A stretch of DNA of 45,380 nucleotides from a virus. This document shows, piece after piece, positions 689 to 40,589 of this stretch. The DNA lies in IMG/VR virus record IMGVR_UViG_3300029893_000015, positions 1 to 45,380 of that record. The stretch is one strand, 5' to 3'. How positions within the stretch are numbered: the first letter of the stretch is position 1; each line of letters opens with the position of its first letter. The translations under genes were made by a program, and so were the position numbers. The notes beneath the pieces were generated by a model. It made no database searches and had not been told where the DNA came from. It was given only the letters and a program-made list of their open reading frames with translations.

Positions 689-1303
689 ATGCCAGCATTA
701 AAAGATATTCTCATCCTTGGTAGCGCAACTAATCAGCATATCTTTGAGGATAGGCGCTATGATATGTACAGAATTCATTCAATCAATTGGAAGAATGAAG
801 AGGAACTAGAGAAGGTAGTTGAGAAGGACAACCTAGCTTGTGTTGTGTTTACAGGTGGTGCTGATGTACACCCCATGTGGTATGGGGAATCACGTGAGGA
901 TCATACATGGCCTGACCTACCTCGTGATATAATTGAGAAGGAGTTCTTCAGCTATTGCTTGGAGAAGGGTATCCCTATGATTGGTATCTGTAGGGGTGCT
1001 CAGTTGTTCAATGTAATGCTTGGTGGTAAGATGGTGCAGGATATCAGTGGTCACTATGGCTCACACCTCATTGTTACTGAGGATGGGAGAGAGATCCCTG
1101 TTAATTCTATCCATCATCAAGCTATGATTCCTAGTGATAAGCTCAAGGTAGTAGCTAAGTCAGTGATTGATGACATCCCTGAAGTAGTAGTTAATGAGGA
1201 GCTTAGTATCCTTGGGGTACAATTCCATCCTGAACTACTGAGTTATAATCATGCTGGATTCATTTACTTCCAATCTCTTATCGAGAAATATGATATTGTA
1301 TAG
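689..1303 (+). CDS. Class I glutamine amidotransferase / peptidase C26 (gamma-glutamyl hydrolase-like)
   Basis: This 204-aa protein has the class I glutaminase triad: nucleophile Cys101 in GICRGAQ, and His180 and Glu182 in VQFHPEL. GGADVHP (56-62), the GGKMVQDI loop (112-119) and VNSIHHQ (138-144) match the C26 family (PuuD and gamma-glutamyl hydrolase type). Such enzymes cleave the gamma-amide or gamma-glutamyl bond of glutamine derivatives. It has a strong ribosome site (AGGAGG) and opens the amidoligase cluster. It may supply ammonia, or it may trim or hydrolyse a gamma-glutamyl product. The activity is assigned with confidence; the substrate is not known. Confidence 0.9.
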   Translation: MPALKDILILGSATNQHIFEDRRYDMYRIHSINWKNEEELEKVVEKDNLACVVFTGGADVHPMWYGESREDHTWPDLPRDIIEKEFFSYCLEKGIPMIGICRGAQLFNVMLGGKMVQDISGHYGSHLIVTEDGREIPVNSIHHQAMIPSDKLKVVAKSVIDDIPEVVVNEELSILGVQFHPELLSYNHAGFIYFQSLIEKYDIV

Positions 1304-1311
1304 GAGGGTAC

Positions 1312-1764
1312 ATGGTAATCAAAATTAATTTCAAGAATGGGAAGAAGGGTACTATATGGTATACTCATAACACATTTCCCGGTAATTGTGGGTATTCTAT
1401 ACTGCGTGATATAGTCTTTAAACTCCCTAGGATGGCTGATTCCTCCAAAAAGGCAGTGTTAAAGGTTGCTCTATCCAAAATGGTAGCTAATACAAGACGT
1501 ATTGTTATCACTGATAAGCACAAGGATAAGTATTTATCTAAGCTAATAGAAGATGAGAAAAATAAAGCAATTGGGTTCATGTTATCTACTGGATTCAATC
1601 TTTCCCCACCTGTGTTAGGTAACCATACTGTAGAGGGTAGATATGATCAATACTACACCACTATGGGGTGGTTGGATTATAATGAGAGAATTCTCACTAA
1701 AAAAGAGCGTGAATATATAGATAAATATATTGATAGTATCAATCCAGCAACAGGTTTTTTTTAA
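1312..1764 (+). CDS. Amidoligase-cluster protein with FPxNCG motif, paralogue 1 (150 aa)
   Basis: Unknown family. A segment at about residues 14-36 carries GTIWYT....FPGNCGYSILRDI, which is clearly shared with the protein at 6398-6841 (GTIYYS....FPSNCGISIYHDI). A hydrophobic strand with VITD/VTH follows in both at about 65-72, and a GW/GY element lies near the end. The two genes flank the amidoligase, amidotransferase and ATP-grasp genes, so they may be partners or substrates of that pathway, or enzymes using the invariant Cys. The start follows GGAGGGTAC. The gene ends in a run of eight T bases. Confidence 0.75.
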   Translation: MVIKINFKNGKKGTIWYTHNTFPGNCGYSILRDIVFKLPRMADSSKKAVLKVALSKMVANTRRIVITDKHKDKYLSKLIEDEKNKAIGFMLSTGFNLSPPVLGNHTVEGRYDQYYTTMGWLDYNERILTKKEREYIDKYIDSINPATGFF

Positions 1765-1779
1765 ACTAGGAGAAACTAA

Positions 1780-2562
1780 ATGATTCTTATTGGCGCTGAC
1801 CCTGAGGTATTCCTCAGAGATTCCAAAGGTTCTATCATACCCTCAATTGGTCTGCTTGGTGGTAGTAAGAATGCCCCGAGGGACATTGGTATTGGTAGTG
1901 TTCAAGAGGACAATGTATTAGCAGAGTTTAACATCAAGCCTGCTAAGAGTAAAGCTGAGTTTGTGCAGAGCATCCTCTCTGTTATGTCTGAGATGGGTAA
2001 GCTTGTAGACCCATTGAAGATTGATATCCGTGCTTCTCATACATTTGATATGAATGTACTACAGAAGTATGGTGATGCAGCATTCCGCTTTGGGTGTGAC
2101 CCTGATATGAATGCTTGGTTGTTCGATTACAATACACCTCCTGATCCTCATGCTGTGGGTGGTCTCCGTTCTGCTGGTGGTCACATTCATATTGGCATGG
2201 ATATGGGGGATGATGAAGAGAAGTTCATGCTTGCAGCCACTATGGATATCTTCCTTGGTATCCCATCAGTACTGCTTGATGATGATATGGAGCGCCGTAA
2301 GTTGTATGGTAAGGCTGGAGCTTTCCGCTTGAAGCCTTATGGTATTGAGTATCGTACCTTGTCTAACTTCTGGCTTAAGACTCCTGAGCTTATTGGATGG
2401 GCTTATGATAATACAATCATGGCGGCTAATACCTACAAGGATATCCGTCTATTAATTAAAAATTCTGGATATAGCCCAGAAGCTCTCTGTGATATCATCA
2501 ATAAAGCTGATAAGATTGCTGCTAAAAATGTAGTTGATACGTTACATATACCACTAGCATAG
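1780..2562 (+). CDS. Amidoligase 1 (COOH-NH2 ligase, type 2-like)
   Basis: This 260-aa protein has the amidoligase signatures of the glutamine-synthetase-like COOH-NH2 ligase fold: GADPEVF (5-11), AEFNI (49-53), GGHIHIG (133-139) and the strand pair AFRLKPYGIEYRTLS (181-195). The acidic and His residues in these motifs are expected to bind metal-ATP. Family members form amide bonds between a carboxylate and an amine and often sit beside glutamine amidotransferases and ATP-grasp ligases, as here. I recall phiEco32-type phages carrying similar sets; that was not checked. The substrate is unknown. Confidence 0.88.
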   Translation: MILIGADPEVFLRDSKGSIIPSIGLLGGSKNAPRDIGIGSVQEDNVLAEFNIKPAKSKAEFVQSILSVMSEMGKLVDPLKIDIRASHTFDMNVLQKYGDAAFRFGCDPDMNAWLFDYNTPPDPHAVGGLRSAGGHIHIGMDMGDDEEKFMLAATMDIFLGIPSVLLDDDMERRKLYGKAGAFRLKPYGIEYRTLSNFWLKTPELIGWAYDNTIMAANTYKDIRLLIKNSGYSPEALCDIINKADKIAAKNVVDTLHIPLA

Positions 2563-2571
2563 GAGGATGAT

Positions 2572-3210
2572 ATGGCTGATGAAGTAAGAGAGCTTAACCA
2601 TGCTTACTCAAGTACATATAACAAGTATGGTTCTAACAAGGTTGTATTAGTCCGTGAGTTCTACCGTTCTGATACCGAAGGTATCAGATGTCTAGCAGAT
2701 ACTATCGACAAGAATAAACCTGTAAGGGTTGATGTACCAGTCAATGATGGTACCATTGATTTCGGGTTCCCTGCTAGACTAGGTAATGTGAACTATAAAA
2801 CATTTGTAGTCCACCTCTCTAGGTCTCCATTGAGACAATACCGTAAGGCACTTGCTGTTAATAACTTTAAGCGTGAGATCATTAGCAGATCAATGCTCAC
2901 TGCAATCAAGAAGGAAGTAAGTCCTGATAGGCTGATTGAGCAAGGTGATTTCATATATAGAATCTTCAATCCTACATACTTCTCATATGAGGAGTCAATT
3001 GATATGGTTCGTAAGTATGAGCGTATCTCAGCTGCCTTCTCAGAGAACCTATGTGTGGGTGTTGAGGCTACAAGCCAGCATATCCATCTCTACTACCGAA
3101 CATTGTTGGTTGGTATTATCAATGATGATAATTCAATCACCCTACTACAGAACTCACAACATCTACGTGAGCTTATCCAATCACACCTACCCAATGTAAG
3201 GATTAAATGA
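2572..3210 (+). CDS. Hypothetical protein inside amidoligase cluster (212 aa)
   Basis: No family recognised. It is a soluble mixed alpha/beta protein with no membrane segment or Cys motif. It lies 9 bases after amidoligase 1, behind AGGAGGATGAT, and its TGA overlaps the ATG of amidoligase 2. That spacing implies coupled translation and a role in the same pathway. Residues 1-80 contain several beta-rich stretches (VVLVREFYR, FGFPARLG); the middle is basic (RSPLRQYRKAL). It could be a substrate-binding partner or a carrier, but nothing in the sequence decides this. Confidence 0.75.
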   Translation: MADEVRELNHAYSSTYNKYGSNKVVLVREFYRSDTEGIRCLADTIDKNKPVRVDVPVNDGTIDFGFPARLGNVNYKTFVVHLSRSPLRQYRKALAVNNFKREIISRSMLTAIKKEVSPDRLIEQGDFIYRIFNPTYFSYEESIDMVRKYERISAAFSENLCVGVEATSQHIHLYYRTLLVGIINDDNSITLLQNSQHLRELIQSHLPNVRIK

Positions 3211-4325
3211 TGACAGAGTATATTGGTAAACTAATGAATCATAATGAAGACCCATCCACTAAAGTAGGTGACACTAGACTGCTCACATTAGACCGTGTTG
3301 GTATTGAAGTGGAGCTTGAGGATGTTGCTCATAAGATACAGAGAGACCCCTTCAAGTATTGGAGGGTAACTGAGGATGGTTCTCTCAGGGATAATGGTCT
3401 TGAATTTGTATTCCGTGCTCCATTAGCTGGCATTGATGTAGTTAAGGCTGTCATAGAGTTGGAGGATGCGATGTCTGTAATCAAACCGCAGATATCGGAG
3501 CGTACATCAGTTCATGTACACCTCGATGTTCGTGACATGTCACCAAGCCAACTCTTTAGCCTGCTAGTAACTTATGCATTTGTTGAGAGGACAATGATGC
3601 GTTACTGCGGGGAATCACGGATGAAGAATAACTTCTGTCTCCCTATTTCTTCTACCTCAGCTGACTTCCTCTCTCGTATCAGTAGGTTTAAACAAACTGA
3701 AGGGCGTGACTTTATTCATCAGGCACAACAGTTTAATGATAACGAACGATATGCTGCATTGAATATTAGTGCTATCAATACATATGGGTCAATTGAGTTT
3801 CGTGGATATCATGGCACATATGATGCACAAGAGATATTGACATGGGTTAATATGATTCTCTCGTTAAAGAAGTTTGCTATTGAGAATGCTGAAGATGTAT
3901 TCAGGAATTTCCATGTACATATCTCTGCTAATGGTGCGTTGCAGGTATTCAATTCAATCTTCAATAGAGTATTAGCAGAGAGATTAACTACTGACTACTT
4001 GATGCATGACCTACGTGAATCAATTGTTACAGTTCAGGATATTCTCTTTAATTGGGACATAGTCTTGGAGGCTTCACAGGTATTGCGTAAGAATCAAGGT
4101 GCAGGAATGGTGTATAAGTTCATGGAGAAGCACAACAATGCACTCTTTCGTGCCTATAAAGAACAAGGGTTAGTCACTGGGAGTATTTCTATAGATGAAC
4201 TATTAGTTGATACACCTGTAACTGCTTGGGGAGCTACTAATCGTGTTCGAGTTGGAGTAAGACCAACACCTGTTTTCACAGCACCAGAAGAACCAACTGA
4301 AGATGAAGAGGAGGATGACGAATAA
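3207..4325 (+). CDS. Amidoligase 2 (COOH-NH2 ligase)
   Basis: This 372-aa protein shows a second, divergent set of amidoligase motifs: GIEVELE (32-38), EDGSLRDNGLEFV (56-68), SVHVHLDV (101-108) and YAALNISAINTYGSIEFRGY (182-201). These correspond to the ATP- and metal-binding strands of the glutamine-synthetase-like fold. The C-terminus is strongly acidic (residues from about 358 on). Two adjacent ATGs (3207 and 3210) overlap the stop of the previous gene. Having two different amidoligases in one operon suggests two sequential condensation steps or two substrates. The family call is firm; the substrate is unknown. Confidence 0.87.
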   Translation: MMTEYIGKLMNHNEDPSTKVGDTRLLTLDRVGIEVELEDVAHKIQRDPFKYWRVTEDGSLRDNGLEFVFRAPLAGIDVVKAVIELEDAMSVIKPQISERTSVHVHLDVRDMSPSQLFSLLVTYAFVERTMMRYCGESRMKNNFCLPISSTSADFLSRISRFKQTEGRDFIHQAQQFNDNERYAALNISAINTYGSIEFRGYHGTYDAQEILTWVNMILSLKKFAIENAEDVFRNFHVHISANGALQVFNSIFNRVLAERLTTDYLMHDLRESIVTVQDILFNWDIVLEASQVLRKNQGAGMVYKFMEKHNNALFRAYKEQGLVTGSISIDELLVDTPVTAWGATNRVRVGVRPTPVFTAPEEPTEDEEEDDE

Positions 4326-5638
4326 TGTGTGGTATCGTAGGGTATATGGTTAAGATTTCAAATAATAAGTATCAGGATTTCTTTCAGCAGTCTCTCTATG
4401 TTGATGCCCTCCGTGGTATGCATGGTACTGGTCTATTTCAAGTACATGAGAGGACTGGTGAGATCAATGGTATTAAGCGTGGGCTTACAGCTACAGACTT
4501 CCTTGATTCAAAGAAAGTAGAGGAGCATCTGCGTAAGCTTAGTTCCTCGTGTATCGCTGTTGGACATAATCGTCATGCTACTATAGGTGCTCATTCAAAT
4601 GAGAATGCTCATCCATTCTTCCATGGTAATATCCATCTAGTACACAATGGTTCATTACGTAGCCATCACACTCTCCCTGATAACAAAGACTTTGTAGTTG
4701 ACTCAGAGATGATTGCACACTCCATCAATAAGATTGGGGTAGAGGAAACACTTAAGTTATTGAATGGTTCCTTCGCTTTGGTGTGGTATGACAGTGCTAA
4801 GAAAACTCTTAACATGGTGAGGAATAGCGAGCGTCCTCTGTTCATTGGTAAGAACAAAGACAACACTCATATACTGTTTGCATCTGAGGCTGGGATGTTA
4901 CGTTGGATTGCCTCACGTAATGGTCTAGAGCTTGATACTGTTGAGATGGTACCAGATGGTAAGCTACATACGTTCTCCTTTAAAGAAGGGATGAATGAGA
5001 AAGAGATCCTTACCGAGGTTAAGGACGTGGAGTTTTATGAGCTTCCCAAAAGTAACTATAGCTACCATAACCCTAACGCTGGCGGCTATCATCCTAACGT
5101 TATTCTCAATAAGCTCAAGCTATCTGTAGATCAGAAAGTAACAGCATCATTCCAGACACGTGAGATTCAAGGTAACTCTACTTACAGTAAGTATACTGGT
5201 GTACTCTCTGATGACCCTTGGACTCCATGTTATGTTATGACTAACCAGATTCTCACACTTAATGAAGATTACAGACTGAAGGTGTCTGGGGTTAAGGGGA
5301 CTCTACAAGACATGAATAACATAGAGATTATCCTGAGTGGTATGAAGATTCGGAAAGTGAATAACATTCTCCACATTGGGAGAGATGGGAAGGTTACTAC
5401 TCAGCACAGTAGGAGCGACGATGATGATATCAAATGGTTACCCGGCCCCAATGGTGGGGATATCACTACAAACGAAATGAAGAAACACCTTAAGGATGGG
5501 TGTTCTAATTGTGGGTGTCGCTTAGAGATATGGGATGCTGATACAATTGCATGGGCTCCCGGTAATGCACCAATCTGTGAAGACTGTGCTCCTATTATCA
5601 GTAAACAAATCACTCTAACTTATGGGAAGAAACACTAA
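4325..5638 (+). CDS. Class II glutamine amidotransferase with C-terminal zinc-ribbon-like domain
   Basis: This 437-aa protein begins MCGIVGY, so removal of Met exposes the N-terminal nucleophile Cys2 of Ntn-type glutaminases. HNRHATIG (81-88), NENAHPF (92-98) and HNGSL (107-111) are the family's glutamine-site motifs. The domain releases ammonia from glutamine for a partner synthetase, as in asparagine synthetase or GlmS. Only the glutaminase part is recognisable (to about residue 230). The rest is unique and ends in CSNCG......CEDC, a likely zinc ribbon. Its ATG overlaps the amidoligase 2 stop and its own stop overlaps the next ATG. Confidence 0.88.
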   Translation: MCGIVGYMVKISNNKYQDFFQQSLYVDALRGMHGTGLFQVHERTGEINGIKRGLTATDFLDSKKVEEHLRKLSSSCIAVGHNRHATIGAHSNENAHPFFHGNIHLVHNGSLRSHHTLPDNKDFVVDSEMIAHSINKIGVEETLKLLNGSFALVWYDSAKKTLNMVRNSERPLFIGKNKDNTHILFASEAGMLRWIASRNGLELDTVEMVPDGKLHTFSFKEGMNEKEILTEVKDVEFYELPKSNYSYHNPNAGGYHPNVILNKLKLSVDQKVTASFQTREIQGNSTYSKYTGVLSDDPWTPCYVMTNQILTLNEDYRLKVSGVKGTLQDMNNIEIILSGMKIRKVNNILHIGRDGKVTTQHSRSDDDDIKWLPGPNGGDITTNEMKKHLKDGCSNCGCRLEIWDADTIAWAPGNAPICEDCAPIISKQITLTYGKKH

Positions 5639-6396
5639 TGTTTATTATATACCCGTATAAGATGGGGAGTAACTCAGCTAAGGAATTAGCTAGGGCTCTC
5701 AATACTAAACGTGTCTACCCTGATGGTAGATATAATTACAAACCTAATCATCAAATCATTAATTGGGGTAATAGCTATTACCCCAACTTTGATAGAGAGG
5801 GGATACGCTGGATCAATAACCCTGACAATGTTGACATGGCAACTAATAAGCTAACAACATTACAGCTTTTGCAGACAGCTAATGTATCCATCCCTGAGTT
5901 TACTACTGATATTGATCTAGTGAGGGAATCAGGTGGAGCATTATGGGTTCTTCGTCGCCTACTGAAGAGTCATTCAGGTAGAGGTATTGAACTACATCAA
6001 GTTACTAACCCTAATGATATTCCCAATGTCCCACTTTTCACTAAGTATATCAAGAAGAGTGCTGAGTATCGCTTTCATGTAATGAACAGGGAAGTAATTG
6101 ATGTACAACAGAAGCGTAAGCGTCGTGACTATGATGGGGAGCATAACTATCAGGTAAGGAACCATCATACAGGATGGGTGTACACTAGGGAGAATGTAAA
6201 TTATCATACCTCTCTGGTTCAGTTAGCCATTGATGCTGTCAATGCTATAGGGTTAGACTTTGGTGCAGTTGACATCATATGGAATGACCACTATCAACGT
6301 GGGTATGTACTAGAAGTAAACACTGCTCCCGGATTAGAGGGAGCTACTATCGACATTTACACTAGATCCTTTATCAAACATTATCGTGGAGTCTAA
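5638..6396 (+). CDS. ATP-grasp ligase (RimK-like)
   Basis: This 252-aa protein shows the ATP-grasp pattern: the SHSGRGI nucleotide-binding loop (111-117), YRFHV (144-148), DFGAVDI (207-213) and the metal-binding VLEVNTAPGL (224-233). RimK-type enzymes activate a carboxylate as an acyl phosphate and join it to an amine. The ATG overlaps the preceding stop. With the two amidoligases and two glutaminases it completes a peptide or amide biosynthetic set. The basic stretch at 159-163 (KRKRR) is unusual and could contact an acidic or nucleic-acid-linked substrate. The substrate is not known. Confidence 0.88.
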   Translation: MFIIYPYKMGSNSAKELARALNTKRVYPDGRYNYKPNHQIINWGNSYYPNFDREGIRWINNPDNVDMATNKLTTLQLLQTANVSIPEFTTDIDLVRESGGALWVLRRLLKSHSGRGIELHQVTNPNDIPNVPLFTKYIKKSAEYRFHVMNREVIDVQQKRKRRDYDGEHNYQVRNHHTGWVYTRENVNYHTSLVQLAIDAVNAIGLDFGAVDIIWNDHYQRGYVLEVNTAPGLEGATIDIYTRSFIKHYRGV

Positions 6397-38840: not shown

Positions 38841-39035
38841 TCAATATCCTTTCTTCTTCTTTCTAAAATACTCATCAGCATCCTTATTGGAATCCCCTGA
38901 TGACTTCCTTCCCTTAATAGCATCAGCAGCCTTACCAAGGAGGCCACCAAAGGCTGCACTAATCATAGCTGGGGTAACCTTAACAGGATCATCCTTTTCA
39001 TGAATCCTACGAGGGGTCTTCTTCTTTTCTGCCAT
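38841..39035 (-). CDS. Basic hypothetical protein, first late gene (64 aa)
   Basis: MAEKKKTPRRIHEKDD and a C-terminus of YFRKKKKGY flank a helix-glycine middle (ISAAFGGLLGKAADAIKG). It starts behind AGGAAGAACATT. It is strongly basic at both ends, so it may bind DNA or membranes. It is the first gene downstream of the probable late promoter. No family recognised. Confidence 0.65.
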   Translation of the reverse strand: MAEKKKTPRRIHEKDDPVKVTPAMISAAFGGLLGKAADAIKGRKSSGDSNKDADEYFRKKKKGY

Positions 39036-39044
39036 AATGTTCTT

Positions 39045-39100
39045 CCTATTATGTTAATGTATAGCTTATGTTGTCCTTAGACAACAATATTAAAAATAAA
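39045..39100 (-). promoter_or_regulatory. Probable late promoter with palindromic operator
   Basis: On the minus strand upstream of the first late gene, TTGTTG and TATACA are 18 bases apart, giving a sigma70-like promoter. The spacer region holds the perfect palindrome TGTTGTC-ctta-GACAACA (39069-39086). It may be an operator for a repressor or activator, or a hairpin in the opposite transcript. GTTGTCC occurs again at about 39242 and GGACAAC in inverted form at about 39463. Confidence 0.5.
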
Positions 39101-39370
39101 GTTCCATAAAAATAAAAATATTTATTATTTATTTAATTCTTTCTACTAAGGGGCTGGATAAATGAATAACTATTAATGTATATATTAATTGATTAACATT
39201 AAGGGTATTATCTATTAGGGCCCTATTATGTTACCTTAATAGTTGTCCTGTTCGAGATGGGGGTTCCCTTAGGATCTCTTAGGGTCTATAAAAAAATTAT
39301 TAGATAATTTTGGGGTGTAATGCACCTTATATAACCTTCCCCCTGTCCCCCCTTGGTACCCCCGCAGATT
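39101..39370. other. AT-rich gene-free region with palindromes (control region or possible origin)
   Basis: No convincing gene. It holds long A/T runs (39090-39150), TAGGGCCCTA (39216-39225, a perfect 10-bp palindrome) and AAAATTAT-tag-ATAATTTT (39293-39311, an 8-bp stem with a three-base loop). The combination of AT-rich DNA and palindromes between diverging transcription units suits a replication origin or promoter cluster, but no DnaA boxes or iterons were identified. Confidence 0.4.
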
Positions 39371-39378
39371 AGTCTCCC

Positions 39379-39393
39379 TGATAATCATTCTCA
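39379..39393. promoter_or_regulatory. Fur-box-like site 1
   Basis: TGATAATCATTCTCA agrees with the 7-1-7 Fur consensus (TGATAATnATTATCA) at 13 of 14 informative bases. It lies about 110 bases left of the ubiJ fragment. It was recognised by eye; binding is not shown. Confidence 0.5.
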
Positions 39394-39489
39394 TTTGCAC
39401 CTAGATTCTCAACCTCGCTTACTCTCTCATTTACCTTCGCATGTTTAATATGTGGTATTAGACAACAGGGATTCAAAAAAGTTCCCTGA

Positions 39490-39609
39490 AAACGCGTGCA
39501 GCGCATCCTCGGCGGTCTCGACATCGACTGGGAGGAGCATCTGTCCCGCCTCACCGGCGATGTGGTGGCGCACCAGCTCGGCAACATGGTGCGAACCTGG
39601 AGCGTGACA
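39490..39609 (+). pseudogene. ubiJ (fragment): Fragment of a host ubiJ-like gene (SCP2-type ubiquinone factor)
   Basis: A G+C-rich island of about 120 bases stands out in AT-rich DNA. In one frame it reads VQRILGGLDIDWEEHLSRL-TGDVVAHQLGNMVRTWS with no start or ribosome site, and a stop lies just before it. The pattern VQ..(9)..DWEE.LSR.TGD..AHQ matches the middle of UbiJ (the SCP2-domain ubiquinone accessory factor) as I recall it from gammaproteobacteria. It probably came from a host chromosome. The identification is from memory and needs a database search. Confidence 0.6.
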
Positions 39610-39610
39610 A

Positions 39611-39625
39611 TGAGAATTATTTTCA
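39611..39625. promoter_or_regulatory. Fur-box-like site 2
   Basis: TGAGAATTATTTTCA agrees with the 7-1-7 Fur consensus at 12 of 14 bases and lies directly next to the right end of the ubiJ fragment. The longer 19-mer GACAATGAGAATTATTTTC matches the classical box at 15 of 19 by my count. Confidence 0.5.
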
Positions 39626-39683
39626 TTTATTTTTAGATTAATATTAGGGTGTAATTCCCCAAGGTGCCCTATACCACTCCAAA

Positions 39684-39698
39684 TAAGAACAATTATCA
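39684..39698. promoter_or_regulatory. Fur-box-like site 3
   Basis: TAAGAACAATTATCA agrees with the 7-1-7 Fur consensus at 11 of 14 bases; CATTACCATT follows and may extend the array. It lies 58 bases to the right of site 2. Confidence 0.4.
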
Positions 39699-39791
39699 TT
39701 ACCATTCAAGCACTTACCAATTCCCCCCATCCATAAGCAATACCTTATCCATGCCAGTACCCAATCCGCCCTATATAGGAGTGCCCAAAAG

Positions 39792-39806
39792 TGTCACATT
39801 GTGACA
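39792..39806. promoter_or_regulatory. Operator-like perfect palindrome
   Basis: TGTCACA-T-TGTGACA is a perfect 7-1-7 palindrome. A second partial copy, GGTCACATTG, lies from 39812. It sits about 60 bases before the first 20-bp repeat and may bind a dimeric regulator. It is not a standard CRP site, since the half sites are inverted. Confidence 0.45.
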
Positions 39807-39863
39807 AAAATGGTCACATTGCGCCGATAATTGTCATTTTTTAGCCTTAGTCTAATTCTTCCC

Positions 39864-39951
39864 CCTATCCACAATGGGATATACATATCATTCTTCCCCC
39901 TATCCACGATGGGATATATTGGCACACTTGGCCTATCCACAATGGGATATA
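39864..39951 (+). repeat. Three copies of a 20-bp promoter-associated repeat
   Basis: CCTATCCACRATGGGATATA occurs at 39864-39883, 39899-39918 and 39932-39951, with starts 35 and 33 bases apart. Each copy contains a short inverted repeat, TATCC....GGATA. Each is followed by a -10-like hexamer: TATACA, TATATT and, best, TATAAT. Copies 1 and 2 also share TTCTTCCCC before the repeat. They look like tandem promoters or operators upstream of the structured region. Confidence 0.7.
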
Positions 39952-39955
39952 TAAT
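39928..39955 (+). promoter_or_regulatory. Probable sigma70 promoter for the structured RNA
   Basis: TTGGCC (39928-39933) and the perfect TATAAT (39950-39955) have a 16-base spacer, which contains most of repeat copy 3. The start of transcription would be near 39962, just before the first long helix of the structured region. A factor that binds the repeat would control this promoter. Confidence 0.55.
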
Positions 39956-39961
39956 GCGGCT

Positions 39962-40545
39962 TTGCAGGTTAGCATCTACTAACTTGGCATGGGGGGTGCA
40001 TTGTATTGGGCAGGGGCGAAAGCCCTGGCTGGAACCCGGGCCTTAATCGAGGGCTACTGTGGAGCGCCGCTTGTCGCTTCTCGCAGGGTATTACTATCAA
40101 GCTAGACCTGCCTCAAGATATGGGGCTAACGTATGGCGTAGTAACGCTTACGTTATTGTAAGGATAGGGAAGCGCGAAGGGTGCCTTTATATAGGGTGCC
40201 CGCATAGCCAACCGACTCCACGCTGCATAGGTCGAAGGGTAAAGCGGGTACACTGCCGCAACCCCCCATAGGCATTGGGCCAGCTCACTGAAAGCATGTA
40301 ATGATGCTAGTACGAGCTAATAATCAAATAACCCCCGATATTGGTTGACAGCCTCTCACGGTAAGGGTTAGCAGTAGGGGGGAGGAAAGCAATGGGAAAG
40401 AGGTAGAACCTAAAGGAACTGCCTTTGCCCTGTTTCAAGTATTCCCCCTGTATGTGATAATCAAACAATCCCTACAGGTTAATCAAAAGGTTAGCCCATG
40501 GGGTTAGTTTGACAATAGGCTTTCATTGAATGAGAGTCTATTGTC
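39962..40545 (+). ncRNA. Candidate large structured noncoding RNA
   Basis: There is no convincing gene for nearly 600 bases, yet many perfect stems. The outer helix ATGGGGGGT/ACCCCCCAT (39989-39997 with 40261-40269) encloses CAGGGgC-GAAA-GCCCTG (40011-40027), GGAGCG/CGCTTC (40061/40075), GCAGG/CCTGC (40083/40107), CTTAC/GTAAG (40147/40158) and GCGG/CCGC (40244/40256). After it come nested AGCTC-AGCAT/ATGCT-GAGCT (40282-40318), TAACCC/GGGTTA (40329/40365), a GGG/CCC three-way junction with AAAGG/CCTTT (40394-40430) and a 15-bp hairpin (40511-40545). It has its own promoter. Ornate phage RNAs such as GOLLD and ROOL are of this general kind; no match to them is claimed. Confidence 0.55.
40511..40545. 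other. Near-perfect 15-bp stem-loop
   Basis: GACAATAG, then CTTTCAT after one unpaired base, a TGA loop, ATGAGAG, and CTATTGTC after one unpaired base: a stem of 8 plus 7 pairs (one G-U) in only 35 bases. There is no T run after it, so it is not an ordinary terminator. It may be the 3' end of the structured RNA, an RNase III site, or an operator before the 40590 gene. Confidence 0.6.
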
Positions 40546-40589
40546 CTACTAATCCATACAATACTGAACGGAAAAGAGGTGTGGGAAAA

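Follow-up and report, generated by a model that had tools for sequence, protein, structure and literature searches.

A short ubiJ-derived stretch in the control region of a Zobellviridae-like podovirus, probably captured from a Thiohalomonadales-like host

The podovirus and its control region

The window analyzed here, i.e., the whole stretch of 45,380 bases that makes up the virus record, represents a Zobellviridae-like podovirus. Its portal protein shares 61% identity with that of an uncultured podovirus (Manatee Spring). The portals of two phages that their records place in the Zobellviridae, namely Methylophilales phage MEP401 and Pseudomonas phage PA11, are 56% and 52% identical, respectively. 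The order of the terminase, portal, and capsid genes is the same in MEP401 and in the phage of the window. Structural genes are oriented leftward from position 39,035, the early module runs rightward beginning near 40,530, and the region between these modules harbors the following features, for which coordinates of the host gene refer to contig DYFR01000019.1 of a MAG:

39036–40529, no strand assigned: non-coding region bearing the insert, between the leftward structural and the rightward early modules, based on the ORF layout and on counterpart regions in relatives
39379–39393, no strand assigned: second Fur-like site of the 7-1-7 type, about 100 nt to the left of the insert, 1 mismatch to the consensus
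39466–39488, no strand assigned: phage hairpin beside the left junction, with a 6-pair stem in both predicted folds; by eye, a similar element is present in relatives L172 and L174
39491–39593, plus strand (sense): ubiJ piece 1, corresponding to nt 326–428 of the 612-nt host gene (contig positions 3002–3104, 103/103 nt identical)
39594–39608, plus strand: ubiJ piece 2, past a 34-nt deletion, corresponding to nt 463–477 of the host gene (contig positions 3139–3153, 15/15 nt identical)
39609–39627, no strand assigned: Fur-like palindrome adjoining the right junction, 0 mismatches to the pattern AATGANAATNATTNTCATT, the sole place in the window at ≤1 mismatch

Both palindromes (39609–39627 and 39379–39393) were called Fur-like based on what we take to be the Fur consensus. 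For sites like that at 39379–39393, 0.05 occurrences are expected in the whole window, and the region of this site forms a 22-nt inverted repeat with 39604–39625. Across nine phage control regions, that of the window among them, palindromes at ≤1 mismatch occurred in three, namely those of the window, G005, and L315, the last of which is not an independent case because it was fetched by the palindrome pattern itself; the other six had none. Since G005 carries the palindromes without ubiJ, the boxes are probably phage features and older than the insert. Outside the window, the Fur-like palindromes of this podovirus group lie at L175 (146–218), L174 (7845–7859), and L315 (12852–12872), again in the divergent control region. 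Use of the Fur box as a host signal was rejected, the 19-nt pattern being rare in two genomes of the host group (G014 has a single palindromic site at 1 mismatch, and G031 has none).

Position, composition, and coding capacity of the insert

Alignment with the host gene placed the host-derived stretch at exactly 39491–39608, a length of 118 nt in two pieces between which a clean 34-nt segment of the host gene is absent. All retained positions (118/118 nt) are identical to the ubiJ gene of the MAG, and BLAST of piece 1 against this genome resulted in E = 3e-47. Host and phage sequences diverge at the first base past each junction, and no 14-mers shared between host and phage were found near the insert but outside it. 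The G+C content of the insert is 0.661, which resembles that of the host locus (0.629) and differs from that of the flanks (0.40 and 0.375) and of the window (0.423); other 118-nt stretches that are equally G+C-rich occur only at the contig ends, within a tandem repeat.

In regard to coding capacity, the frame 39490–39636 is open, no in-frame ATG precedes it, and loss of the 34 nt causes a frameshift. The insert begins close to where the SCP2 match of the host gene ends and, taken alone, revealed neither a significant protein-family match nor an SCP2 match. A protein-coding gene or functional UbiJ was thus ruled out by the missing start codon, the frame-shifting deletion, and the lack of an SCP2 match. 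Two overlapping minus-strand ORFs (39369–39626 and 39445–39705) were also rejected as genes, as they had no PHROGs match at E 0.1.

The initial annotation had described a ubiJ fragment at 39490–39609 within a G+C-rich island, with no start and no complete domain. The fragment was confirmed by the identity of both pieces to the ubiJ of one MAG, and the island and the lack of a start and of a domain hold as well. Its span proved real, with the limits now set one base further in on either side, and the 34-nt deletion and the adjoining Fur-like palindrome are additions to that description.

Source gene and host group

The record title of the source contig (DYFR01000019.1) names Thiohalomonas denitrificans. 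Positions 2677–3288 comprise an ORF of 203 codons; it contains an SCP2 domain according to Pfam (E 4.9e-16) and also matched the NCBIfam UbiJ model along most of its length (E 4.3e-19), at 69 bits and thus below the 275-bit cut-off of that model. Among the best 80 of 86 UbiJ relatives in genome contigs, this contig ranked first at 97% of residues, followed by a runner-up at 94%. Within the order to which the MAG belongs, 14 of 20 genomes, the MAG itself included, matched the insert, with identities of 100, 91, 90, 87, and 84%, followed by 78–84% on shorter stretches. E. coli genomes searched for the insert gave no match. A search against gammaproteobacteria for a hit at near-identity had been proposed at the outset as a pointer to the host group, and this pointer was borne out by the single MAG at 100% over 103 nt, with the next genomes at 91% or below.

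Judged from these sequence matches, the insert probably points to Thiohalomonadales-like gammaproteobacteria as the host group, and we infer that the phage actually infects the source lineage. As the label of the MAG is the depositor's, the claim is kept to the order and the source lineage and does not extend to a species name. The 103 nt without mismatch represent a sharp pointer to a host lineage for an uncultivated podovirus. Comparison of the rest of the window with five genomes revealed no further host pieces, but only tRNAs, weak short matches, and a low-complexity repeat at the contig ends.

Origin of the insert

Among 14 virus records, a UbiJ match was found in the window alone and in none of the 13 related records. 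While MEP401 shares its gene order with the window, a tblastn search with the ubiJ piece resulted in no match in any of 50,697 phage records, nor did the piece match viral contigs, both scans being ones that may leave out the window's own or very near records. A search of phage records for DNA similar to the control region gave no match, and none of the papers listed by the literature searches gives an account of such a ubiJ scrap in a phage, judged by titles and the openings of abstracts.

We regard a recent, illegitimate, and probably neutral capture of host ubiJ DNA, marking the host group, as the best explanation, with a rough probability of 0.62. A Thiohalomonadales-like gammaproteobacterium would have been infected, and a fragment of the central part of its ubiJ, or a copy made of that DNA, would have served as starting material. 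This scrap would have been joined without extensive homology into the non-coding control region of the phage, beside the phage hairpin, and during copying a polymerase that jumped across a stem would have skipped the missing 34 nt, which fold into a strong hairpin. Encoding no protein, it would then persist as a passenger that records the host, and its neutrality is most likely. As the retained bases and the source gene do not differ at any position, the event would be recent. Insertion and date are nevertheless indirect, because a search for an empty-site sibling phage using a 20-base pattern from the control region found none. The initial annotation had offered a scar of recombination with the host among its options, and this is the one that fits best, given the identity to host ubiJ, the host-like G+C content, and the absence of the piece in 13/13 related records.

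The deleted segment together with its flanks folds at −26.8 kcal/mol and ranks 6 among 569 ubiJ windows with RNA energies. The missing 34 nt are thus one of the strongest hairpins of ubiJ, which suggests a polymerase jump. Both the deletion of the hairpin and the position of the left junction at the phage hairpin would be accounted for by such a jump if the strand was looped, and laboratory amplification can do likewise. Further points count against capture: with DNA energies, the deleted hairpin is less outstanding (rank 12/569); the perfect identity would fit selection for base-pairing equally well; and the insert ends exactly at the Fur-like palindrome, a coincidence that random insertion does not predict.

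Hairpin-bridging deletions of this sort are also made by amplification enzymes, and the insert might accordingly be a chimera from library amplification or assembly, the real phage having no ubiJ at this place. Perfect identity to a cellular gene and the absence of the piece from every relative searched would fit such an artifact. However, two junctions and an internal deletion lie inside 118 nt, the insert contains no Ns, and the junctions offer no shared sequence by which k-mer overlap could mislead an assembler. We regard a chimera as the main rival of capture, less probable than the latter but with an appreciable probability. A further reading takes up the Fur-like palindromes, one adjoining the insert and another about 100 nt away, and holds that transcription of the piece yields an active RNA, either antisense to ubiJ or as a truncated EsrE-like sRNA under Fur-like control, which would alter the quinone supply or respiration of the host during infection. 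According to the available parts of two reports, E. coli ubiJ (yigP) bears in its 3' region the 3'-UTR sRNA EsrE, which is needed for aerobic growth (PMC5581919) and is activated by Fur with iron (PMC9728176). The insert resembles this system in that it comes from the 3' half of ubiJ and has a Fur-like site close by. In addition, a weak leftward promoter-like site (39720–39692) would read across the insert, and the plus strand folds somewhat better than shuffled sequences (z −2.18). On the other hand, the fold of the minus strand is ordinary when compared with shuffled sequences (z −1.30), the number of promoter-like sites is close to that expected by chance (6 vs. 4.7), and the only terminator-like site lies about 1 kb away. 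Differences from EsrE, as far as described in the available text, are that no promoter, terminator, or 3' end of its own was detected for the insert, from which the 3' end of ubiJ is absent, and that the host segment shows no synonymous constraint: the captured codons 109–143 had no raised synonymous identity across 84 ubiJ genes (0.431, rank 109 of 168 windows). Moreover, the Fur-like boxes look phage-native, being present without ubiJ in G005, and no typical Fur box is present in the esrE promoter of E. coli according to the available part of the report (PMC9728176).

An RNA interfering with ubiJ, as first suggested, thus gained no positive evidence beyond its position, and we regard a regulatory RNA as improbable. 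Still less credence is given to the specific version in which a ubiJ-derived RNA beside a Fur-like box is produced in infected cells and either forms perfect base pairs with the ubiJ mRNA or imitates an EsrE-like RNA, thereby coupling the iron state of the host to its quinone supply. If the RNA reading were true, part of a host respiratory gene would be serving the phage as a regulator. Perfect identity over 103 nt is long enough in principle for homologous recombination, and the piece might then be a homology arm or an attachment site for recombination with, or integration at, host ubiJ. Yet a PHROGs scan of 28 of the 46 listed ORFs revealed no integrase, integration in the middle of the gene would break ubiJ, and none of the related phage records searched carries the piece. 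The homology arm raised by the initial annotation thus found no positive support, and we consider it very improbable.

Capture of host DNA, the preferred reading, is an established type of event, and the insert is chiefly of value as a pointer to the host group. According to the available part of a review, phages acquire host DNA by illegitimate recombination, and exact phage–host matches serve as a host signal (PMC5831537). The cases described there resemble the present one in that a stretch of a phage genome is identical to a host gene, is attributed to uptake in a past infection, and is usable for host prediction; in contrast to these cases, as far as the available text describes them, the scrap in the window is very short and non-coding, lies in a control region, and carries a 34-nt internal deletion at a hairpin. 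It would represent a very fresh example of homology-independent entry of host DNA into a phage genome, and the hairpin-shaped deletion hints at the copying route.

Further features of the genome

Apart from the insert, the control region displays several other elements. The stretch 39950–40530 is poor in ORFs, and its plus strand folds far better than shuffled sequences (z −4.14; 0/100 shuffles as good); judged from these predicted folds, it is possibly a large structured phage RNA, and a search of this stretch against Rfam revealed no family above cut-off. By eye, relatives G004 and G005 have ORF-free, hairpin-rich stretches at the matching place. Rfam gave no match for the insert itself either, and two hits to miRNA families far under their cut-offs were located elsewhere (40498–40561). 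A short element around GGTGTAATGCACC recurs within the window (39305–39326 and 39639–39660), occurs also in the control regions of relatives L175 (241–303) and L171 (859–915), and might be a promoter or operator of the phage. Three 29-nt direct repeats with start-to-start spacings of 35 and 33 were identified at 39855–39951; they contain a core that we take to be DnaA-box-like and are a possible replication origin. Tandem repeats of 20 nt with a TGTCACA-type palindrome occupy 39781–39840, and 32 nt within them (39792–39823) match a site in G031 at 91%.

Both contig ends (44983–45380 and 1–136) lie in a repeat of TACGGC/AACGGC units, and the first 156 bases of the window are 93.6% like a stretch near its end. 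Given this repeat at both ends, circular permutation of the genome or a break within the repeat is possible. Finally, positions 689–6396 harbor a gene cluster with similarities to a glutamine amidotransferase, a COOH.NH2 ligase, an amidoligase, an aminotransferase, and an S6 glutaminyl transferase, possibly a peptide- or surface-modifying set.
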